Source of the DNA: Paenibacillus polymyxa M1
GTDB taxonomy: Bacteria; Bacillota; Bacilli; Paenibacillales; Paenibacillaceae
DNA: 64,000 bases
Direction: 5' to 3'
NCBI RefSeq assembly: GCF_000237325.1
Contig: NC_017542.1
Coordinates: 4,126,501-4,190,500, forward strand
In this document: positions 1 through 8,234 of the stretch, one piece after another
Numbering within the stretch: the stretch's first letter is position 1
Layout: the number at the start of each line of letters is the position of its first letter
Translations under genes and position numbers: made by a program
The notes under the pieces: generated by a model
What the model saw: only the letters and a program-made list of their open reading frames with translations
What the model was told of the DNA's origin: nothing
Databases searched by the model: none

Positions 1-481
1 GATTGACTTCAAGCTGCGTAATGTAAGGATTTATTGTATATCCCTTAGCTTTTAAGAGTTTTGTAAACAGTTTTTCAGTACTTCCCATTGATCTTAAGAG
101 ATCAAATTCTACTTGGCTAACTTCAAGGTTATATGTCTTTCTAACATCATTCTTTTCGCCTCTGTAGTTTTTCTCAAAATCGAAATAGACGGTATCTGTC
201 CACCTTAAATCTGTATAAATATGTGAAAAGTAACCTATAACAAAGTCCTTCCATTCTGGCCCCGCTTGCTTCAGTAAATATTCCTTGCACTTCTCCATGA
301 TCAATTCCTTGGCTGGTAATTTATCGTTATGTACGAGATGAGTCACACCTTTTTCTTCCCTGGATACCTTCCCTCTCATATGAATCGCATCCGGAGCAAT
401 ACTGCCTAATAAAAAATTGGGTGAGGGGTCATTAATAGAAAGGTTTTCTGAAATTGCAAAGTGTACCATAGGCCAAGGCAA
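1..481 (-). CDS. Zn-dependent phospholipase C-like hydrolase, 3' part outside window
   Basis: The N-terminal 160 residues of a protein of the zinc-dependent phospholipase C/S1-P1-like hydrolase family (Zn_dep_PLPC type). I chose the TTG at 481-479 because GGAGG lies 7 bases upstream at 489-493; a later ATG (469-467) has no ribosome site. Family-like motifs are PWPMVHFAI (residues 2-10), FLLGSIAPDAIHM (23-35), THLVH (47-51) and GYFSHIYTDLRW (83-94), giving a His/Asp-rich set of potential zinc ligands (H7, D31, H34, H48, H87, D91). The reading frame runs off the window's left edge. It is the last visible cassette of the array: its start lies 54 bp from repeat site 1. Substrate unknown; phospholipase activity is inferred from the family only. 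Confidence 0.75.
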   Translation of the reverse strand, partial: MPWPMVHFAISENLSINDPSPNFLLGSIAPDAIHMRGKVSREEKGVTHLVHNDKLPAKELIMEKCKEYLLKQAGPEWKDFVIGYFSHIYTDLRWTDTVYFDFEKNYRGEKNDVRKTYNLEVSQVEFDLLRSMGSTEKLFTKLLKAKGYTINPYITQLEVN

Positions 482-534
482 ATTAATTCCTCCTTTGATA
501 TTTCCTTCAATCATGAACTTGTCGGAATTTCAGT

Positions 535-643
535 TAACGTTCCTGTATTCATGACCCCCGAAGGGGTTGTCTGCTGAAATGCTTCCCTGAAATCTTCTCG
601 CAGACCAAGGCTCCAAAGGAGCCGCTGCTTGAATATTATGTTA
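535..643 (-). repeat. attC-like cloverleaf site 1 (long-loop type)
   Basis: The outer ends are TAAC (535-538) and GTTA (640-643), with inner complementary boxes TATTCA/TGAATA. Between them are three hairpins: CCCC-gaa-GGGG, GTCTGC...GCAGAC with a 24-base loop, and GGCTCC-aaa-GGAGCC. The hairpin sequences differ from those of the other eight sites, yet the three-stem layout is kept. This is the most diverged member. It separates the phospholipase-like cassette from the HTH cassette. Confidence 0.8.
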
Positions 644-664
644 TATGACGGAATCGCTTCTTCA

Positions 665-889
665 CTACTGGTTTTCTTCGGGTACATACTCAATTAAATC
701 TGATAATTTGCAGTTAAATGTATCGCATAGCTTGAATAAAGTTTCCAGCTTTGTTGTTTCTATATTCGTTTCCCTATACAACTTGTTGATTGAATTCCGA
801 CTTAAGCCCGATTTCGCCATCAATTCTGTTATATCATCTATTCGATGTTCTGCCATGAGTTCTCGTATATTGCACTTGATTACGTTCAT
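665..889 (-). CDS. Small Cro/CI-type HTH regulator
   Basis: A 74-residue protein consisting of one XRE-type helix-turn-helix. The recognition region is about residues 21-45 (LMAKSGLSRNSINKLYRETN) and the end DTFNCKLSDLIEY is typical of short single-domain Cro/CI regulators of Firmicutes (YozG-like). The start has a GGAGG-type site just upstream (about 895-900). It is divergent from the gene at 1043, and a promoter with an overlapping palindrome (980-1022) lies between them, so it probably controls that gene, itself, or both. It sits in the cassette bounded by sites 1 and 2, in the usual cassette orientation. DNA binding is a safe family inference; the target is not shown. Confidence 0.8.
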   Translation of the reverse strand: MNVIKCNIRELMAEHRIDDITELMAKSGLSRNSINKLYRETNIETTKLETLFKLCDTFNCKLSDLIEYVPEENQ

Positions 890-979
890 CTTTTCCCCTC
901 CATAATTCTATCTTATCTCCCATACCAGCAATCATCAACGAAAAGCGAAGTTTTAACTCTATAACGTCAAATATTCACC

Positions 980-1022
980 TTGCAATTAACTTTATAAGGT
1001 TATATAATAACTCTGTAGAGTT
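980..1022 (+). promoter_or_regulatory. Promoter with overlapping palindromic operator
   Basis: TTGCAA (980-985), a 17-base spacer and a perfect TATAAT (1003-1008) form a sigma-A promoter reading right. Directly after it, AACTCTGTAGAGTT (1009-1022) is a palindrome with 6-bp arms, placed where a bound repressor would block initiation. A similar half, AACTCTATAAC, lies near 955-965 on the HTH-gene side. The ribosome site GAGGAGG follows before the ATG at 1043. Binding by the divergent HTH protein is inferred. Confidence 0.65.
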
Positions 1023-1042
1023 AATTAGAGGAGGAATAACAT

Positions 1043-1453
1043 ATGATTAATACATTAGAATCATTAACAGAGCCGCTTATAAGAATACGTTTAGAATTAC
1101 TCTATACTGAGCTTCTGGAGTGTCATAAGGAGTACACTCAGCTTTCTTCGGAGACATATCAATATTTTAAAACGCTTCGTGATGCTTTGCCCGATCAACT
1201 TCAACATACGGTTTTTCTTTACGAAGACGCCCAAATTTCTCTACAATCCATCCTAGAAAGAAGTATCTACATACAAGGTTTCAAAGATGCTCTACAACTA
1301 TTTAGTGAATTGAAAATTCTAGTATTTAGAGGGTCATATGACCCTCTTTTTCTATTGTTCTTGATTCTGTCGTATAACGTTCTTGTATTCATGACCCAGC
1401 GCATGCTGGGTGTCCGGCGACTGCCGGAGCGAGGACGAATGTCCGATGCATGA
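1043..1453 (+). CDS. Small helical protein of unknown function, 3' end runs through terminator and repeat site
   Basis: Starts at ATG 1043 behind GAGGAGG. The first ~97 residues are helical and charged (LLYTELLECHKEYTQL, then FKDALQLFSELKIL) and loosely resemble DUF6809-type small proteins; I do not claim the family. After residue ~97 the frame runs through a strong terminator hairpin (1328-1352) and then through most of repeat site 2 before stopping at 1453. The last ~40 residues are therefore probably an accidental extension after loss of the native stop, and little full-length protein may be made. It is the only cassette gene in the array on the plus strand, and it carries its own promoter. 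Confidence 0.55.
   Translation: MINTLESLTEPLIRIRLELLYTELLECHKEYTQLSSETYQYFKTLRDALPDQLQHTVFLYEDAQISLQSILERSIYIQGFKDALQLFSELKILVFRGSYDPLFLLFLILSYNVLVFMTQRMLGVRRLPERGRMSDA
1328..1352 (+). terminator. Rho-independent terminator, inside the 3' end of the preceding frame
   Basis: AGAGGGTCATATGACCCTCT is a perfect 20-bp palindrome, followed by TTTTTCT. It lies within the open frame of the 1043 gene, about 100 bp before its stop, which suggests that the original stop codon was earlier. Confidence 0.75.
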
Positions 1454-1464
1454 ATATTATGTTA
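1375..1464 (-). repeat. attC-like cloverleaf site 2 (short type)
   Basis: TAAC at 1375-1378 and GTTA at 1461-1464 enclose the L-like boxes TATTCATG/CATGAATA. These differ from the common TATTCACG/CGTGAATA by a compensated base pair. The three internal hairpins are CCCAGC-gcat-GCTGGG, TCCGGC-gact-GCCGGA and GGAC-gaat-GTCC. Confidence 0.88.
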
Positions 1465-1487
1465 TCTGCTGTTTCTCACTTCTTTGA

Positions 1488-1976
1488 CTAAACAGTAAGC
1501 AAGTCTTTTAACGACCATTCATTATCATTTCCGTCTTTTGAAACAAACCAAATATGAGTGTATTTTTCTGGCTTGTATATCGCATTTTTATTTCTAAGAA
1601 AATCACTCATTCCGAATATAGGAGAAGCGTTCCTAATTAAAAGCGCTATTGGATATGCAGCATCATACTTCTCTATCTTTTTTTCCTTCTGTTTCAGTAG
1701 TTCATTAAGAACCTGAATATAGCTGGCTGAATTTTCTAATCCATGCATTTCCTCAGCCGATCTTCCAAATAACATTTTAGCTTCGTCGGCATCGTAGAAT
1801 AGGTGAGTTACTTCTAGACCTACTAATCCATCTTTTATGCTCTTTAAGATATAATCTGGACGCTCACGTCTCTCTATTACTTCTAAGTGATCTTCGCGAT
1901 TTAAATTATATAAATCTACAAAGATGCTAACGGCAGCTTCTTCTAAGGCAGATTTTTCATCATCATGATTTTTCAT
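1488..1976 (-). CDS. Cassette protein, possible PD-(D/E)XK-like fold, function unknown
   Basis: A 162-residue cytoplasmic protein without signal or membrane segment. The stretch ERPDYILKSIKDGLVGLEVT (about residues 38-57) has the spacing PD-x(n)-hydrophobic-E-hydrophobic-T seen in some restriction-endonuclease-like folds, where PD and E-x-K/T line the metal site. The lysine is replaced here, so the assignment is tentative. The rest (FYDADEAKMLFG, IEKYDAAYPIALLIRN, THIWFVSKDG) I do not recognise. Its start is 38 bp from site 3 and its stop 24 bp from site 2, leaving little room for a private promoter. Confidence 0.65.
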   Translation of the reverse strand: MKNHDDEKSALEEAAVSIFVDLYNLNREDHLEVIERRERPDYILKSIKDGLVGLEVTHLFYDADEAKMLFGRSAEEMHGLENSASYIQVLNELLKQKEKKIEKYDAAYPIALLIRNASPIFGMSDFLRNKNAIYKPEKYTHIWFVSKDGNDNEWSLKDLLTV

Positions 1977-2014
1977 TACTTCTCCCTCCCTAAATATATT
2001 TGAGAAATTGCAGA

Positions 2015-2128
2015 TAACGTTCCTGTATTCACGACCCAGCGAATGCTGGGTGTCCGGCTGCCTCTTCTTCCCCGTTATCCTCCCATGCCGGACCGAGGGC
2101 GTATGCCCGATGCGTGAATATTATGTTA
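2015..2128 (-). repeat. attC-like cloverleaf site 3 (long-loop type)
   Basis: TAAC at 2015-2018, GTTA at 2125-2128, inner boxes TATTCACG/CGTGAATA. The hairpins are CCCAGC-gaat-GCTGGG, TCCGGC...GCCGGA with a ~28-base pyrimidine-rich loop containing CTTCCCCG, and GGGC-gtat-GCCC. The same CTTCCCCG loop core recurs in sites 5 and 7. Confidence 0.9.
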
Positions 2129-2135
2129 TATGTAG

Positions 2136-2765
2136 TCATCTGACCTCATTGAATAAACTCACATATTCTTGCTCAATTATAAGAAGACCGTTCTTTATTA
2201 CTATTGTTTTGTAGTCACTTTCAAGATTCTCATGTTTCTCAAAAAGTTCAAATCCCATGATTGAAAATGGATCCGTCGAAGTTAATTTGCCCTTTAAAAC
2301 TTCTCTTAAACTAACAGGTGCTCCTAATTCTCTATAAGTTTGCACCATATTCAATCTATGTTTTTCCCAAATTTTCACTGAGAGATTTAGTAGAGGAGCG
2401 ATTTGTTCTCCATTGAATTTCCAACTGTCGTCATCCAACTCTACTTCGTCTTCCGGTAATATCAGATGTAAAATGATTTCATTGGATTGATACGTCCAAA
2501 ATAATCTTAAATGACTAAATTGATTCGACTGTAACAATACTTGTTTGTAATTATGTCTGACATGCTGATCAAATTCCAATTTAAACTTATCTGACAGTAG
2601 TTTAGAATTCCATGAGATAATTTCTTCAAGGTTATTATCTTCAGAATTCCAATAACCTGATTTAAAAGAAAAACATTCAAATATCGTTTCATAGATTTCT
2701 TGAGTAAAGTTAGCAGAGAAATAGTCATAGGGAAAGGAATACTGTATTGAGAAATATGTTGGCAT
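2136..2765 (-). CDS. Cassette protein of unknown function (209 aa)
   Basis: I start it at ATG 2765-2763 (MPTYFSIQYSF), which has CTAGGAGG upstream; the longer open frame only adds codons running through repeat site 4. The protein is soluble, acidic and aromatic-rich (FPYDYFSANF, LRLFWTYQSNEIILHLILPEDEVELDDDSW), suggesting an alpha/beta sensor or adaptor fold, but I recognise no family motif. Its stop is only 8 bp from site 3, and its start 31 bp from site 4, so it fills its cassette almost completely. No catalytic signature is visible. Confidence 0.7.
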   Translation of the reverse strand: MPTYFSIQYSFPYDYFSANFTQEIYETIFECFSFKSGYWNSEDNNLEEIISWNSKLLSDKFKLEFDQHVRHNYKQVLLQSNQFSHLRLFWTYQSNEIILHLILPEDEVELDDDSWKFNGEQIAPLLNLSVKIWEKHRLNMVQTYRELGAPVSLREVLKGKLTSTDPFSIMGFELFEKHENLESDYKTIVIKNGLLIIEQEYVSLFNEVR

Positions 2766-2795
2766 ACTTCCTCCTAGTTTTAAGATGATTACATA

Positions 2796-2884
2796 TAACG
2801 TTCCTGTATTCACGACCCAGCGAATGCTGGGTGTCCGGCAAATCCGGATCAAGGGCGTATGCCCGCAGCGTGAATATTATGTTA
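2796..2884 (-). repeat. attC-like cloverleaf site 4 (short type)
   Basis: TAAC at 2796-2799, GTTA at 2881-2884, boxes TATTCACG/CGTGAATA. The hairpins are CCCAGC-gaat-GCTGGG, TCCGG-caaat-CCGGA and GGGC-gtat-GCCC. The stop codon of the neighbouring 2877-3833 gene is formed by bases of this site. Confidence 0.9.
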
Positions 2885-3833
2885 TAGGTTTTGTGAATTC
2901 ATCAATTAAGCACTTCATTTGACTAGGGCTGCCACTCATTTTAATAGTATGAATCTTTTCTGAATTATCATAATGATATCTATAAATCACATCTTTGAGA
3001 TATAAGATTTCTTCGTTGCAAAGAAAAGAGAAGCTTCTATCTAAAACTGGCACGTATTCAGTAGTTAGAGTTCTTAAAACAATTTCTACTGAAAATCTCG
3101 GATCTTTACTACTTATATTTTTATCTGTCTTTAATAATTTTTCACATGCACCATATATATATTCTGCAAATAGATTTATGCTTTCAAAAGACTCGACTAT
3201 ATATTTCTTTTCAACTGTAAGCTTGTAGCCTTCAAATTTATATTTTTTTCTATAAATATCATCCGTTTTTCCAATTCGATGAACTAAAATATTTCGTCTA
3301 TCATGCATTTCTACGATTTTTTTCAGTTTGACCTCAGATAAATTAAAATCGATTTTAAATTTCTTTTTAAAATATTCGCTGACCTTTTGTATTCCTTGAT
3401 TTTGTATTCTTCTACACTCACTATTAATAATATTTGTATGTAAGCTTGATAGAGAGTCAAAAGAAAGAATCTCCCCTTGGGAGTATTCAATACGTTCATT
3501 CGTTTGAAATAAATCTTTACGAGTAGCAAATAATTCTTTTATCAAATCCATAAAAAAATTCTCTAAAATCGAGATTAAACGTATGAAAATTGTCTCTCTC
3601 AAAACTTGTGGTAACTCTATTTTCATAAGCTGGTCAAATTCTTGCTTGTTTGAGGAGATAGTTACTCGGAAGTTGTTTCCTTGCTCATAATAGATAGGGT
3701 CATTTTCTTTAATAAAACCTGCTTCAATCCTCTCCGAATTCCTTAATTTATTTTGCCAATATGAATTCACAGAGCCTGCGTATAGCAATTCGATTTTATG
3801 CATTTCTTCTTTGAAATTTTCGTAGGCTTTCAT
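2877..3833 (-). CDS. HEPN-domain-like cassette protein
   Basis: A 318-residue protein beginning at ATG 3833-3831 (MKAYENFKEEMHKIELLY), with GGAG 7 bases upstream; the longer frame only extends through site 5. Near residues 195-215 the sequence DRRNILVHRIGKTDDIY carries an R-x4-H motif (RNILVH), the hallmark of HEPN domains. It is preceded by long helices (LRETIFIRLISILENFFMDL), as in the MAE_28990/RiboL-PSP-type HEPN families. HEPN proteins are often RNases in toxin-antitoxin and antiphage systems; that function here is inference. The gene's TAA stop lies inside site 4, so insertion next to an attC-like end appears to supply the stop codon. Confidence 0.72.
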   Translation of the reverse strand: MKAYENFKEEMHKIELLYAGSVNSYWQNKLRNSERIEAGFIKENDPIYYEQGNNFRVTISSNKQEFDQLMKIELPQVLRETIFIRLISILENFFMDLIKELFATRKDLFQTNERIEYSQGEILSFDSLSSLHTNIINSECRRIQNQGIQKVSEYFKKKFKIDFNLSEVKLKKIVEMHDRRNILVHRIGKTDDIYRKKYKFEGYKLTVEKKYIVESFESINLFAEYIYGACEKLLKTDKNISSKDPRFSVEIVLRTLTTEYVPVLDRSFSFLCNEEILYLKDVIYRYHYDNSEKIHTIKMSGSPSQMKCLIDEFTKPIT

Positions 3834-3863
3834 AGCATTACTCCTAGTAAATTGAATTTTGCT

Positions 3864-3979
3864 TAACGTTCTTGTATTCAGGACGCTCGGCGAATGCCGA
3901 GTGTGTCCAGTTGCTTCTACTTCCCCGAAATTCCCCTGCTGGACCGAGGGCATATGCCCGATGCGTGAATATTATGTTA
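3864..3979 (-). repeat. attC-like cloverleaf site 5 (long-loop type)
   Basis: TAAC at 3864-3867, GTTA at 3976-3979. The first stem is CTCGGC-gaat-GCCGAG where other sites have CCCAGC/GCTGGG; the second is TCCAG...CTGGA with a long loop containing CTTCCCCG; the third is GGGC-atat-GCCC. The stem changes are compensated on both sides, although the L-like box has one mismatch. Confidence 0.88.
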
Positions 3980-4000
3980 TACGACGGTGAATTGAAACTA

Positions 4001-4513
4001 CTATCTATAAAGATCTTTATACATTTCTAAGTTTTGAATCTCTTGCTCATATCTCTTATAAAGCTGATTTTCTTCATAGTCATTGAGATAACCTAGCATC
4101 TCATTCAAACTTTCTATTCTTATCATAACCGACATATCTGCCAGGGCATTTGAGTTTATTATTGTTCTACGGTACTTCTCTAATTCAAGAAATCTTTCAA
4201 TTAATTCTTTGAACCCGCTTAGCGAATGTTCCTTAAAATCAAATTCTCTATTAAAGTCAATATTTTGAAGTTCATTTTTATAATCATTAATACCTTTTTG
4301 ACGTATTAATCTTGATGAATCCGCAGCGCGTTGCTGTGGACCAAATCGAAACTGATTTCTCCACTGGATTATGGTATTTTTAGGTACATTAAGTATGCTA
4401 CTGATTTCAGCTGGGATAAGATCTTTCTCAACACAATACTCATACATTATTTCTTTTAACTCTTTCCCCAGTTCCTTCTCCACTTGTAATTTATAATCAT
4501 TGTTTGTCATCAT
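4001..4513 (-). CDS. HTH cassette protein, terminase-small-subunit-like DNA binding
   Basis: A 170-residue protein. The ATG at 4513 is preferred because GAGGAG lies 8 bases upstream (4522-4527). Residues ~30-55 (LIPAEISSILNVPKNTIIQWRNQFRFG) form a helix-turn-helix of the kind in transposase and terminase-like proteins. The C-terminal half is long amphipathic helix (KELIERFLELEKYRRTIINSN, YEENQLYKRYEQEIQNLEMY), probably a coiled coil for oligomerisation. I see no catalytic domain. It is flanked by sites 5 and 6 with short spacers. It could be a regulator or a DNA-binding partner of an unknown system. Confidence 0.68.
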   Translation of the reverse strand: MMTNNDYKLQVEKELGKELKEIMYEYCVEKDLIPAEISSILNVPKNTIIQWRNQFRFGPQQRAADSSRLIRQKGINDYKNELQNIDFNREFDFKEHSLSGFKELIERFLELEKYRRTIINSNALADMSVMIRIESLNEMLGYLNDYEENQLYKRYEQEIQNLEMYKDLYR

Positions 4514-4552
4514 ATGAAACACTCCTCAAGAGTTATTCTACTCACTGTCGTA

Positions 4553-4642
4553 TAACGTTACTGTATTCACGACCTAGCGCATGCTGGGTGTCCGGCGAAT
4601 GCCGGACCCAGGACGAATGTCCGTAGTGTGAATATTATGTTA
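4553..4642 (-). repeat. attC-like cloverleaf site 6 (short type)
   Basis: TAAC at 4553-4556, GTTA at 4639-4642; here the outer end reads GTTAAGT, an exact match to the attC core GTTRRRY. The hairpins are CCTAGC-gcat-GCTGGG (one wobble or mismatch), TCCGGC-gaat-GCCGGA and GGAC-gaat-GTCC. Confidence 0.9.
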
Positions 4643-4697
4643 AGTGATGTTGATCATTTTTTGAGTTATTGAATCTTTTTATCAATAATGAGATTTA

Positions 4698-5453
4698 TTA
4701 AAATGCCGATAATACTTGCGAAACAATAATTTTTTTAGTTTCTGAATCCAAATCCAATATCTTTCCATCAAGCCACTTATCAGACTCTAATTTCTCGCTG
4801 TGATACGGGCTGCTCTCCCAGTTCTTTTTGGTGTGCAAACTATTAAACTCAACAGCAAAGAACCCTTCCCTTGGTTCATTTAAAATTAACTCATCATAGA
4901 ACCAACCAGAAATCTTTATCGAATTTAAATCCTTATAGTCTAGTTCAAAGTTAAATCCATAGTGAGTTTCATATCCTTCTTCGTCATATAAGTCATAGGC
5001 ATTTGAAGATTTAAGCACTTGTACAAGTGGATCAGTAGATTTTAAGAAATACCAGACTATATCAACAAATTCCTTACATCTTTCTTTTTCGGGTGGATCT
5101 GCATCATTATGCTCAATGTCATTTCGAATAGTAAGTAAGCTTTTCATCAAATATGGTCTTACTAATCCAAAATCTTCCAGAATCTCTAAGTATCCTTTGT
5201 TTCTCCATGAAGGATGAATACTTCTAAGATTATAAGAACGTTCTATCAACTGTAGTCTATGATTTAGTGCTCTTTTTAAATTAGCAATCCCATCTCCTAA
5301 TTCAAATTCTGTTGTTGCGTTATCTACTAAAGCTCTTGAGTATTCCCACATTTCATAAGGTCGTTCCCATTTATCATCTGGTAAAATAGTAGCCCATTGT
5401 GAATAATAGTCCCAATCAAAAATTGTTTTCGAAAGATATATAATGTTTTCCAT
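4698..5453 (-). CDS. HEPN-like cassette protein
   Basis: A 251-residue soluble protein, the second HEPN candidate in the array. A helical N-terminal half (IANLKRALNHRLQLIERSYNL, RPYLMKSLLTI) leads to RNDIEHNDADPP near residue 112, which contains R-x4-H (RNDIEH), the HEPN signature. The C-terminal half (FNFELDYKDLNSIKISGWF, EGFFAVEFNSL) looks beta-rich and is unknown. It resembles genes found in defence islands, but I see no antitoxin-like partner in the same cassette, which also holds 55 bp downstream and 79 bp upstream of noncoding DNA. RNase activity is inferred from the motif only. Confidence 0.68.
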   Translation of the reverse strand: MENIIYLSKTIFDWDYYSQWATILPDDKWERPYEMWEYSRALVDNATTEFELGDGIANLKRALNHRLQLIERSYNLRSIHPSWRNKGYLEILEDFGLVRPYLMKSLLTIRNDIEHNDADPPEKERCKEFVDIVWYFLKSTDPLVQVLKSSNAYDLYDEEGYETHYGFNFELDYKDLNSIKISGWFYDELILNEPREGFFAVEFNSLHTKKNWESSPYHSEKLESDKWLDGKILDLDSETKKIIVSQVLSAF

Positions 5454-5532
5454 CAGATGCTCCTCTACTCAATACAATAATGTCTTCTTAAGCTATAGAT
5501 TTCTCAGCTTATATCTTCCTGCCAATTTCACT

Positions 5533-5648
5533 TAACGTTCCCATATTTGCGACGCTTGGCGTATGCCAAGTGTGTCCGGCTGTCTCTGCTTCCCCGGAAT
5601 CCCTCTGCCGGACCGAGGGCGTATGCCCGATGCCTGAATATATTGTTA
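5533..5648 (-). repeat. attC-like cloverleaf site 7 (long-loop, diverged ends)
   Basis: TAAC at 5533-5536, GTTA at 5645-5648. The stems are CTTGGC-gtat-GCCAAG (compensated relative to site 3), TCCGGC...GCCGGA with a long loop containing CTTCCCCGGAATCCC, and GGGC-gtat-GCCC. The L-like boxes (TATTTGCG, CCTGAATA) pair imperfectly, so this site may recombine less well. Confidence 0.85.
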
Positions 5649-5838
5649 TATGTTGTTAAATTGGCGGACTTCGGAGCATCTACTCCCAAATTTCAATCCC
5701 ACTCTGCTTCCGCTTAGGAAGCATTCCTCGTCCGCTCTTCGCTCGTAACTTTCAATCCTTGATCCGCATAGGATCTACCTTCCGTTCTTTCCTGCTCTTA
5801 TCTATCCTTGTTCTTCCAAGCCGAATTTAATGATCTTA
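5649..5838 (-). other. Cassette without an ORF; possible structured RNA
   Basis: This 190-bp unit between sites 7 and 8 has no frame longer than about 15 codons on the cassette strand. It holds three short perfect hairpins: GGAG/CTCC (5673-5686), GCTTCC/GGAAGC (5706-5722) and GATCC/GGATC (5761-5775). ORF-less cassettes are known in integrons. It could encode a small RNA, carry a promoter, or be a decayed gene; the sequence does not decide between these. Confidence 0.45.
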
Positions 5839-5928
5839 TAACGTTCCTGTATTCACGACCCGACGCATGTTGGGTGTCCGGCGGATGCCGGACCCAGGGC
5901 GTACGCCCGCAGCGTGAATATTATGTTA
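5839..5928 (-). repeat. attC-like cloverleaf site 8 (short type)
   Basis: TAAC at 5839-5842, GTTA at 5925-5928, boxes TATTCACG/CGTGAATA. The hairpins are CCCGAC-gcat-GTTGGG (with G-T wobble), TCCGGC-ggat-GCCGGA and GGGC-gtac-GCCC. Confidence 0.9.
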
Positions 5929-5965
5929 ACTGATGTCAACGACTTCATGGTTAACTTACAAATCA

Positions 5966-6922
5966 CTACCTATATGTGCTCTTGGATTTAATGATATTTA
6001 TATCTGTTGCCTCGTACCCATAGTAGCTCAATATCTGGTAAATATCTCCCTCTTGTATATCTGATTTAGGGCCTATTATTATTTCGTTAATGATATTCTT
6101 CGCATACGCTTTAAAAGATAAGTCAAAAAACGATACAATTCTATTCCTATAAGCTTTAAATTGCAGGCCATTAGGAAATAGCACTGCCATATCGCCACTT
6201 AACAATGATTTATCTTCTACTTCATCATACCAATCTTCCCAGTTTGTATATTTATCTAATTCGTCATCAAAAACTATTCGCCATTCTGCCTCTTCCTTGA
6301 AAGAGGGATTTTTATATTTTATTGACTCTTGTATAAAGATCCTTGAAGATATTTCATGAAATACATCAATTGCGTAAGTTTCTCTAGAGAAAATTTTTTT
6401 TGTATCCCCCTCTGTAATTGCATGCAATACACTTTGTAATATATCTTTTGAATGCTTTCTAATCTTCTCAGAGGAGCTATTATTATTTTTCTCTGGGTAC
6501 TCAACTTGTAATAACTTTAGACTCTCCTCTTTATTGATTAATGTTTTTAAAGAGTCAATACTAAATCCAATAGATAAGCCATAACCATCGTCTGCGTAAC
6601 CTCTCCATTGGCTAAGTTTATCGCCTTCTTCAGAGAAACAAGCTACATAAAATAGTTCTTCACTTCTTTCTAACATTTTTTCTTTAATAGATTTAACAAT
6701 GAGTTCCAAGGATGTGACTTCGTCTAGTCCGTAAATCAATTGTCCTCTAAAAAATGAATGTTCTTTATATTGACGAACTATTTCTTCTCCAATGTATTCA
6801 AACAACCATTTTGTTTCTTTATAGTCGTTTGATTTAGAAATATCCGACAATCTTATTGTTTTATTTTTTATAATGTTCAAAAATGTATCATTACTACAGT
6901 AGTGATATAATGAATTGCTCAT
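5966..6922 (-). CDS. DUF2971 family protein
   Basis: A 318-residue cytoplasmic protein matching DUF2971. It begins LYHYCSNDTFLNIIKNKTIR with LSDISKSND, has the central block CFSEEGDKLSQWRGYADDGY followed by GLSIGF, and later FKEEAEWRIVF and IINEIIIGPKSD. DUF2971 proteins are often carried by phages, islands and defence clusters; their biochemical activity is not settled, and a fold related to ADP-ribosyltransferases has been suggested for similar proteins. The start is 30 bp from site 9 and the stop 38 bp from site 8, so it is a single-gene cassette read leftward like its neighbours. Confidence 0.82.
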   Translation of the reverse strand: MSNSLYHYCSNDTFLNIIKNKTIRLSDISKSNDYKETKWLFEYIGEEIVRQYKEHSFFRGQLIYGLDEVTSLELIVKSIKEKMLERSEELFYVACFSEEGDKLSQWRGYADDGYGLSIGFSIDSLKTLINKEESLKLLQVEYPEKNNNSSSEKIRKHSKDILQSVLHAITEGDTKKIFSRETYAIDVFHEISSRIFIQESIKYKNPSFKEEAEWRIVFDDELDKYTNWEDWYDEVEDKSLLSGDMAVLFPNGLQFKAYRNRIVSFFDLSFKAYAKNIINEIIIGPKSDIQEGDIYQILSYYGYEATDINIIKSKSTYR

Positions 6923-6951
6923 TTAAAACACCTCATTTCGTTGATTTCAGT

Positions 6952-7041
6952 TAACGTCCCTGTATTCACGACCCAGCGCATGCTGGGTGTCCGACGACTG
7001 TCGGACCAAGGGCGCATGCTCGCAGCGTGAATATTATGTTA
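6952..7041 (-). repeat. attC-like cloverleaf site 9 (short type)
   Basis: TAAC at 6952-6955, GTTA at 7038-7041, boxes TATTCACG/CGTGAATA. The first stem is CCCAGC-gcat-GCTGGG. The second is TCCGAC-gact-GTCGGA: against TCCGGC/GCCGGA elsewhere, both arms changed together and keep pairing. The third is GGGC-gcat-GCTC. Confidence 0.9.
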
Positions 7042-7057
7042 TCTGAAGTGCCGTTCT

Positions 7058-7594
7058 TTACAGTATTCTTTTCCCTTCTTTAAACCATATTAGTTCAGTT
7101 TTTTTGATTTTTTCCATTCCAGTTTCGAATTCAATAAATAAGCCCCAATCATATTCCAAATTATTGTATCTTTCTTTATCCGTATAACATTCTAATTTTT
7201 TAAAATCAAACCTTCTATCAAGTCTATTTGTCGATTTTTTAATCTCTATTACTAAATAGTTGTCGGTATTCTTTCCTCTCCGGTGGATCACTATATCTGG
7301 AAAAGTTGATAACCCCATATATTCTGTGTCGTCATCAACAATGTCTTTAATAAAATCCTTTTTGAGTCTTTTACATTCTGACTCTAGAACATAGATTCTT
7401 TTCTGTTTGTTCGCTTCGTCAACATTTCTATTGTATTCACAATCCACATTGTACTCTTGGAATTCTTCTTGAAGATATACCGCTAACTTATGTGCAATTG
7501 TTCTTTCATTTAAATCGTGACTTAACAAATGATGATCTTTTTCAAACAGCTTTGAAATAGCTATGTTAATTCCCTTTGTTATTGTTGGATTCAT
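7058..7594 (-). CDS. PD-(D/E)XK nuclease-like cassette protein
   Basis: A 178-residue protein, the first cassette next to the recombinase. Residues ~118-142 contain FPDIVIHRRGKNTDN then YLVIEIKKS, a clear PD...E-x-K pattern that fits the metal-binding core of restriction-endonuclease-like folds. The upstream ERTIAHKLAVYLQEEF and CEYNRNVDEANKQ resemble short stand-alone proteins of this superfamily found in genomic islands. Nuclease activity is inferred, not shown. Its start lies 36 bp from the candidate attI-like end at 7631 and its stop 17 bp from site 9. If the array follows integron logic, it is the most recently gained and best expressed cassette. Confidence 0.78.
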   Translation of the reverse strand: MNPTITKGINIAISKLFEKDHHLLSHDLNERTIAHKLAVYLQEEFQEYNVDCEYNRNVDEANKQKRIYVLESECKRLKKDFIKDIVDDDTEYMGLSTFPDIVIHRRGKNTDNYLVIEIKKSTNRLDRRFDFKKLECYTDKERYNNLEYDWGLFIEFETGMEKIKKTELIWFKEGKRIL

Positions 7595-7630
7595 TTTATT
7601 ACTCCATTTTTATGTTTTAGGCATTACAGA

Positions 7631-7700
7631 TAACGTCTTATTTACGAACTTCCGAAAGAATACTCTCTTTGTCATATTCACGAACTTCGTGAATCCTGCA
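7631..7700 (-). other. Candidate primary attachment (attI-like) site
   Basis: TAACGTC (7631-7637) matches the outer end of the cassette sites exactly at the start of the first cassette. Instead of the cloverleaf it is followed by TTTACGAACTTCCG and then a perfect hairpin ATTCACGAAcTTCGTGAAT (7676-7694), which reuses the ATTCACGA box. No GTTA partner is seen. It lies between the recombinase remnant and the first cassette, where an attI would be. The role is inferred from position. Confidence 0.45.
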
Positions 7701-7731: not shown

Positions 7732-8234
7732 TCAATCCTCCAGCTCGCTCATCCGATCCAACGGACTTTGAATCCGCCCAATGTCCCGTCTGCTCACATG
7801 TGTACACCGCTCCGTCGTTCGCACACTCTGATGCCCTAGCAGTTCCTGAATATAGCGAAGATCAATCCCATTTTCCAGCAAGTGGGTCGCAAAGGAATGC
7901 CTTAGCGAATGGATACTCACCTGTTTGCGAATGCCCGCTTCAGCCAGCGCTTTTTCAAACACTTTCTGCGCTGAACGTTCCGTCAGGTGGCGGCCTTCCC
8001 TCTGCCCTGGAAACAGCCAGTCTGCTGGCTGCTCCCACCCTATATACTGCTCGACCACCGCAAAAGCCGCTTCGGATAGCAGCGTTTGCCGATCCTTCCT
8101 GCCCTTTCCCTGACGAACTTTCAGTACTTTCCGTTCACGGTCGCAGTCTTCAAGACGCAACCTCACCACTTCGCTTACCCGTCCAACCGTACGCCAATCG
8201 TTTTTTCATCCCGATAAAGTAGGTTTATCTTCAT
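7732..8234 (-). pseudogene. Xer/IntI-like tyrosine recombinase, internally deleted and lacking the catalytic Tyr
   Basis: An intact start (GGAGG, ATG 8234) encodes MKINLLYRDEKTIGVRLDG and then stops. In another frame the sequence resumes at GRVSEVVRLRLEDC and continues to the natural C-terminus. About half of a normal ~300-residue recombinase is missing. The remainder shows GKGRKDR, HSLRHSFATHLL and LGHQSVRTTERCTHV, and ends IQSPLDRM, as in Xer/IntI-like enzymes. Where the family has TTEIYTHV the sequence is TTERCTHV (TGT), so the nucleophilic Tyr is Cys. The IntI-specific insert before HSLRHS is absent, so the enzyme was Xer-like rather than a true IntI. It reads toward the array, not away from it. 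Confidence 0.85.

Follow-up and report, generated by a model that had tools for sequence, protein, structure and literature searches.

Does a Gram-positive chromosome harbor a gene-cassette system that works like an integron without the integron integrase IntI? The question is raised by one end of a 64,000-nucleotide stretch of the Paenibacillus polymyxa M1 chromosome (C1:4126501-4190500 of genome G000 in our set; hereafter "the window", with positions counted from its first letter). An original prediction, made from the sequence alone, described there a row of cassettes separated by attC-like sites, and proposed cassette capture akin to integrons, but with sites built differently and with a recombinase that is Xer-like and not an IntI. 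Our analysis supports this proposal: judging from sequence comparisons, we consider it very probable that the locus is a sedentary chromosomal cassette-capture platform, integron-like in its working but served by a recombinase of a different family. The platform would comprise a recombinase gene, an attI site just past the gene end, and arrayed cassettes that usually hold a single gene together with a folded recombination site, all sites being co-oriented. A cassette would excise as a circle, in which its start (TTANNNGA..) would pair with its own end (..TAAC). The single long hairpin formed in this way would have an outer arm and, beyond a fixed 2-nt mismatch, an R arm of ~9 bp; an asymmetric unpaired spacer (5/8) would separate the R arm from an L arm of 7-8 bp, with three inner hairpins further on. 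This folded strand would be recognized by the tyrosine recombinase and joined to attI within GTTA, in a single orientation.

The array and its sites

All nine predicted sites with TAAC...GTTA ends and complementary inner boxes were located on the minus strand of the window, as full sites of 89-116 bp: site 1 (attC-like) at 6952-7041, site 2 at 5839-5928, site 3 (degenerate) at 5533-5648, site 4 at 4553-4642, site 5 at 3864-3979, site 6 at 2796-2884, site 7 at 2015-2128, site 8 at 1375-1464 and site 9 at 535-643. Read on the minus strand, they follow the pattern TAAC-ATAAT-ATTCACG ... CGTGAAT-ACAGGAAC-GTTA, where the boxes ATTCACG/CGTGAAT (degenerate in one site) form the L arms and the spacers have the unequal lengths of 5 and 8 bases that had been claimed for them. 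The Rfam scan of the window returned 0 matches.

A covariance model built from 13 sites (R1), with which the 150 best of 1251 candidates from the same genome were scored, detected at least 26 sites (E<=0.01), all on a single strand and within ~35 kb (C1:4098449-4133555). The array extends ~28 kb past the left edge of the window, with 17 more sites upstream, reaching C1:4098449, and the portion described first is approximately the first fifth of its length. Scatter of the sites without gene association, which the original prediction had wanted checked, was not found (26/26 sites in one array). The covariance model E-values (down to 2.9e-20), the clustering on one strand of a single region and the absence of matches from 394 genomes outside the genus (see below) together argue that these sites are not chance occurrences. 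Their orientation is uniform across the genomes compared: 286 of 287 matches in 21 arrays point the same way.

Cassettes shared between species

Variation of cassette content, which the original prediction wanted to see between strains, was found in comparisons between species. We identified 34 between-species cassette pairs that are homologous end to end at >=85% identity; 34 cassettes make up these pairs, in groups that overlap, so that the pairs should not be counted as independent events. Identity just inside the start boundary (positions +4 to +6) is 1.00, 0.97 and 0.97, against 0.48, 0.34 and 0.30 in random cassettes, while just past the end boundary it falls to 0.50, 0.35 and 0.32, compared with 0.46, 0.35 and 0.32 in random ones. 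The shared homology stops within GTTA; as this motif is nearly invariant, the comparison places the crossover among its four bases and not at an exact one, and we write it as G|TTA by analogy with IntI. The neighbors of the shared cassettes are themselves end-to-end pairs in 0 of the 34 cases, and a looser test, in which the flanking 580-600 bp of each pair were compared by blast, found no upstream homology in 31/34 pairs and no downstream homology in 31/34, with neither flank shared in 28/34. Mobility is supported by these 28 pairs in unshared contexts, and the cassettes thus appear to behave as mobile units.

The same data bear on a rival idea, namely that of passive repeats or MITE-like (miniature inverted-repeat transposable element) transposons scattered among unrelated genes. 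The sites are indeed palindromic, abundant and specific to the family, as such elements could be; however, they are not scattered in their own genome, the units of homology consist of a gene plus a site and end within GTTA, the orientation is uniform and attI is fixed, so that we give this explanation hardly any credence.

The predicted fold of the site

Within an array, the bases that follow GTTA and those that precede TAAC in one site come from different cassettes. We therefore compared the start of each cassette with its own far end (site matches above E 1e-3, unresolved boundaries and lengths outside 60-4000 bp were dropped). The own-end match is 9.65 of 16 positions for 216 cassettes, a value reached in 0/10000 permutations, versus 5.52 for the ends of other cassettes and 5.64 (n=232) for the bases that actually face each other across a site in the array. 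For 13 cassettes of the P. polymyxa genome the values are 8.77 versus 5.43 (1/100000). Positions 1-3 and 8-12 match at frequencies of 0.69-0.86 (expected 0.27-0.49), positions 4-5 are conserved regardless (0.86 observed; 0.86 and 0.75 expected), and positions 6-7 form a near-fixed mismatch (0.38 and 0.06). The same complementarity recurs in the second arrays discussed below (62 cassettes in seven arrays, 9.34/13 versus 4.98; 0/10000) and in other genera (64 cassettes from four genomes, 9.31 versus 5.02 of 13; 0/10000). Since the ends of a cassette complement each other and not their array neighbors, we infer a circular intermediate with a folded site; and since the arm bases are free between cassettes yet paired within them, the substrate would be expected to be a folded single strand of the circle, not a double-stranded sequence read by a protein.

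Folding predictions for 193 cassettes cut from 21 arrays (lengths outside 150-3500 bp dropped) agree with this: the mean predicted DNA folding energy is -26.1 kcal/mol for the circular form and -21.4 kcal/mol for the array form, with the circle lower in 167, equal in 2 and higher in 24. Within the site, pairing is retained in 96.5% of alignment cells, versus 85.6% in shuffled and 35-53% in slid controls, and double changes occupy 319 cells versus 125 (shuffled) and 2-111 (slid), in an alignment that was itself fitted to the structure. The R box keeps TAAC/GTTA, and its three outer bases are variable but self-complementary; the consensus of the integron R box is RYYYAAC/GTTRRRY. The site is thus predicted, with support from covariation, to fold as a single strand in which spacers stay unpaired between an R arm and an L arm.

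These features have to be set against a dif-type system, in which the host XerC/XerD would move double-stranded modules at dif-like sites, in the fashion of pdif modules. A pdif site has two Xer arms around a 6-bp center and is double-stranded. As this explanation would have it, the left half of most sites, TAACATAATAT, is identical to one half of a dif-like 28-mer (C1:3000649-3000676). However, each site carries a single dif-like half (by eye), the other half being CGTGAATACAGGAACGTTA; the variable arm bases are retained only as self-complementary pairs; the inner hairpins covary; and a dedicated recombinase co-occurs with the sites and sits at attI. We regard a dif-type system as very unlikely. 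The shared half suggests that the site and its recombinase could descend from an Xer/dif pair, a reading drawn from one genome and a general dif pattern. Close to the 28-mer, two more dif-like sequences flank a gene for a 323-aa Xer-like protein (C1:3003258-3009651), possibly an island integrated at dif.

The attI site

On the minus strand of the window, the conserved sequence preceding the first cassette is an attI half-site (7634-7688) that ends at the crossover, G(7634)|TTA. Within it, 36 bp upstream (~7670-7688), is a 19-nt direct repeat that is imperfect (16/19) and is a feature of attI in clade A, to which the window belongs; two clade B genomes examined match at only 10/19. The junction lies 100-101 bp past the last matched recombinase codon in clade A and 127-128 bp past it in clade B, with the exceptions of G034 (142 bp, where the match ends 5 residues early) and G038 (142 bp, unlike sequence). 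The 8 genomes of clade A share an identity of 0.86 in the 40 bases that precede the junction, falling to 0.40 from +4 to +40 and to 0.29 from +41 to +80; the corresponding values for the 11 genomes of clade B are 0.80, 0.42 and 0.32. Conservation before the junction and variability after it indicate that the platform is shared, with a different first cassette in each of these genomes. Overall, attI beside the recombinase gene is conserved up to the junction, and followed by a variable first cassette, in 19 of 21 arrays. One and the same chemotaxis-receptor gene precedes the array in each of the eight clade A genomes, which argues that the platform is sedentary.

The recombinase

The tyrosine recombinase remnant predicted near the end of the array is located at 7735-8234 (minus strand), where a tblastn search with the intact G061 protein identified a broken cassette-array recombinase (PF00589, 2.2e-33). 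It keeps residues 1-18 (8181-8234) and 231-379 (7735-8181) in different frames, residues ~19-230 are missing, the invariant Tyr356 is replaced by Cys, and an open reading frame (ORF) is left at 7732-8169. As this remnant is the only recombinase ortholog found in its genome (E<=1e-25), the P. polymyxa array has probably come to a standstill, unless it is served by some other recombinase. In genomes with an intact copy, the product of this gene would be the catalyst.

Could the recombinase be a divergent IntI, and the locus a true integron, or a cluster of attC sites lacking integron integrases (CALIN), with ordinary attC sites? The layout of integrase, attI and cassettes is the same, as are the AAC/GTT ends, the boundary in GTT and the folded site, and the IntI model TIGR02249 is the second-best NCBIfam model for the recombinase (203-208 bits); the structure of IntI4 (PDB 2a3v) also matches, at 133 bits. 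However, the three intact proteins all miss the TIGR02249 cut-off of 265, and the IntI-specific insert is absent from all 12 relatives measured, in which box I is separated from HxxRH by 66-68 residues, versus 107-108 in three IntI; the alignment with 2a3v breaks at this very insert. In a tree of 21 rows IntI forms a separate clade (100/100), although branches are long and 7 of 18 inner branches are open (the rows labeled "own Xer" stand for Xer-like genes from the respective genomes and are not confirmed as XerC/XerD). The sites, too, differ by their three inner hairpins and extended outer arm. We therefore judge a true integron or CALIN improbable. A platform with a recombinase outside the IntI family, which we prefer, would work like an integron and yet fall outside the definition, since the IntI-specific domain is absent and the cut-off of the IntI model is missed.

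With the XerA-type model NF040815 the three intact proteins score 224.8, 216.2 and 209.8 bits, around its curated cut-off of 220. They carry an extra N-terminal stretch of ~95-150 aa; a second comparison, by VIA-align, covered residues 97-379. Searches with four simple patterns found no LexA-like boxes upstream of the recombinase in 21 loci (with extrapolated starts for truncated genes), which leaves room for SOS control.

Two relatives were noticed on plasmids from other phyla. The one on the plasmid of Chryseobacterium sp. SNU WT5 (NZ_CP041688.1) is 38% identical over 97% of the length, N-terminal part included, and heads a stretch with a ~190-209-nt hairpin repeat, which occurs six times in this plasmid sequence; three copies were examined, and these end in GTTA and agree at 90-98% identity, whereas their flanks have diverged. 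Of the 16 other coding sequences in this 17-kb stretch, twelve are oriented like the recombinase gene, the remaining four being transposases and a group II intron protein. This is possibly an analogous cassette system in Bacteroidota; the best local matches between its repeat and the Paenibacillus sites span only 15-23 nt. The Acinetobacter nosocomialis plasmid NZ_CP095868.1 encodes a truncated relative (221 aa) directly upstream of tet(X3), which the tree groups with the Chryseobacterium protein (96/92). The Chryseobacterium case suggests that cassette systems without IntI may exist in other phyla and may have been overlooked, since the tools used for detection depend on IntI and canonical attC sites.

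Distribution in Paenibacillaceae

The search across genomes with a covariance model, as suggested in the original prediction, revealed matches throughout the family. Within the genus, R1 has matches in 74 of 75 genomes (E<=1e-4), and a second model built from 150 sites (R2) matches 281 of 394 family genomes in 16 of 19 genera. An integron-like system is present in ~70% of the sampled Paenibacillaceae genomes. In a phylum-wide sample R2 matches only 4 of 398 genomes, all four from the same genus, and none of the 394 Bacillota genomes outside it. The counts of site-positive genomes are lower bounds because stricter Infernal filters were used. A recombinase accompanying the arrays, another point put up for checking, was found as well: sites are present in 128 of 129 genomes that carry the recombinase (E<=1e-80).

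Some genomes contain a second, distant array, ~0.86-0.98 Mb from the first in six of seven genomes and ~2.6 Mb in G063. No recombinase was found within 20 kb of the second arrays in these seven genomes (G040, G037, G049, G053, G039, G034 and G063), and in this they resemble CALIN.

Several observations weigh against a recombinase-driven platform of this kind. Approximately 153 of the 281 site-bearing genomes lack the recombinase at E<=1e-80 (a few may be among 6 unsearched genomes), which implies that its loss is common or that other enzymes can act on the sites. Own-end matching at attI is ambiguous for six of the 21 arrays: in G053, G007 and G033 another place matches best, and the attI position scores 8/16 in G013, 8/16 in G025 and 9/16 in G038, even though the attI sequence itself is recognized in five of these six arrays (G038, with its unlike sequence, excepted). 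As a circle, 26 of the 193 cassettes fold no better than in the array. Among the 34 shared pairs, three have upstream similarity of 45-98 bp and three others, formed among G001, G039 and G049, are 97-99% identical over 580 bp of downstream DNA. Finally, a blastn search with one site as the query found no sites in plasmid or phage collections.

Cassettes and their cargo

The window holds ten cassette units. The unit without a plausible ORF (5536-5841) and the single rightward ORF (1043-1453) are as originally predicted, while the leftward genes number nine instead of eight. All units are read on the minus strand. Cassette 1 (6955-7633) carries a gene at 7058-7594 for a protein of 178 aa that matches the PADLOC profile PD-Lambda-3_A (1.6e-33), and cassette 2 (5842-6954) a DUF2971 gene at 5966-6922. 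No family could be assigned to the genes of cassette 4 (4556-5535; gene 4698-5453), cassette 7 (2018-2798; gene 2136-2765) and cassette 8 (1378-2017; gene 1488-1976). The gene of cassette 5 (3867-4555; gene 4001-4522) has a weak helix-turn-helix (HTH) match, that of cassette 6 (2799-3866; gene 2877-3833) a weak HEPN-like match below the cut-off. Cassette 10 (1-537 in the window, where it starts, continuing outside) contains a gene weakly similar, below the cut-off, to Zn-dependent phospholipase C. Cassette 7 has an end-to-end copy in genome G025 (95.4%), with no flanking homology found.

Cassette 9 (538-1377), of which end-to-end copies exist in five other genomes (85-98%, two of which also match over 45-55 bp upstream of the cassette), comprises an HTH_26 gene at 665-889 (minus strand) and the divergent ORF at 1043-1453 (plus strand). 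The latter reads into the recombination site, and a terminator-like hairpin is visible by eye at ~1328-1350. The cassette looks like a self-expressed two-gene module of an HTH_26 regulator and a divergent ORF. Cassette 3 (5536-5841) has no plausible ORF and measures 306 bp including its site. It may carry a promoter or an RNA; gene-less cassettes in Vibrionaceae reportedly contain such elements (PMC11014356).

In the 193 cassettes of the 21 arrays the median length is 787 bp, the median offset of the gene start 45 bp and the median distance from stop to site 35 bp. The longest ORF, taken per cassette, runs in the direction of the array in 165 and opposite to it in 20 (some of which may be antisense artifacts, e.g. 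in cassette 9), and 8 cassettes have none of >=60 aa. We surveyed the cargo of the 20 other arrays (148 proteins of >=80 aa, leaving out opposite-strand and own-genome proteins). Among the 25 commonest families were GNAT acetyltransferases (PF00583; 12), SnoaL-like proteins (5), APH-like phosphotransferases (3), NUDIX (2) and HEPN (Cthe_2314; 2), and the few matches to defense profiles include PDC-M08B (3), GajA/Old-like (2) and AbiLi (2). The P. polymyxa array encodes, among others, a caspase-like peptidase, an aspartyl protease (PDC-M08B) and methyltransferases.

Comparison with known systems

A search of open-access literature (titles and abstract openings; subscription papers and preprints were outside its scope) found no description of integrons or cassette arrays in Paenibacillus. 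The excerpts that name the genus report a cassette protein with a Paenibacillus homolog (PMC4909258), a table row of zeros for one isolate (PMC3382206) and the mention of a homolog only (PMC7691350). According to a passage in PMC9024848, integrons are extremely rare in Firmicutes, and their absence from certain clades is called intriguing; IntegronFinder 2.0 is said there to have found one complete Firmicutes integron, that of Limnochorda pilosa, together with a small number of CALIN spread over different genera. A Gram-positive family with a widespread integron-like system contrasts with this reported rarity. The family lends itself to studying, by natural comparison, how tyrosine recombinases come to act on folded single-stranded DNA, and to testing whether the IntI-specific domain is truly needed; it also offers a large unstudied pool of cassette genes, some resembling phage-defense genes.

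We see a fair chance that the Paenibacillaceae system has an independent origin. On balance, we lean towards the view that an integron evolved here independently, with an Xer-derived recombinase outside the IntI family that would capture folded strands without the IntI domain, probably by means of the N-terminal domain and the longer, differently folded site. XerA-type and other Xer recombinases acting on dif lack the extra N-terminal stretch, and serve chromosome dimer resolution instead of folded cassette sites and attI. In pdif modules, gene modules are moved by Xer-type recombination at double-stranded dif sites; this movement is alike, whereas pdif has no attI, dedicated recombinase or folded cassette site.

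The closest comparison is with integrons (IntI/attI/attC), in their sedentary chromosomal and CALIN forms. The integron integrase is described in an excerpt of PMC9668308 as an IntI with an IntI-specific additional domain. The Paenibacillaceae recombinase is without this domain and has ~95-150 extra N-terminal aa; in its sites the outer arm is longer and bears a fixed 2-nt mismatch, the spacer is asymmetric (5/8) and there are three inner hairpins; simple patterns detect no LexA-like box upstream; and the system occurs in one family only among the Bacillota sampled. The reverse integrons of Treponema denticola, as a passage in PMC4909258 presents them, share with it an integrase gene that points the same way as the cassettes, the enzyme being IntI there and non-IntI here. 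In common with integrons at large, the Paenibacillaceae system has the integrase-attI-cassette layout with usually one gene and one site per cassette, the uniform orientation, the folded site with AAC/GTT ends, a junction within GTT, arrays both with and without an integrase, and cassette ends whose pairing would be restored in the circle.

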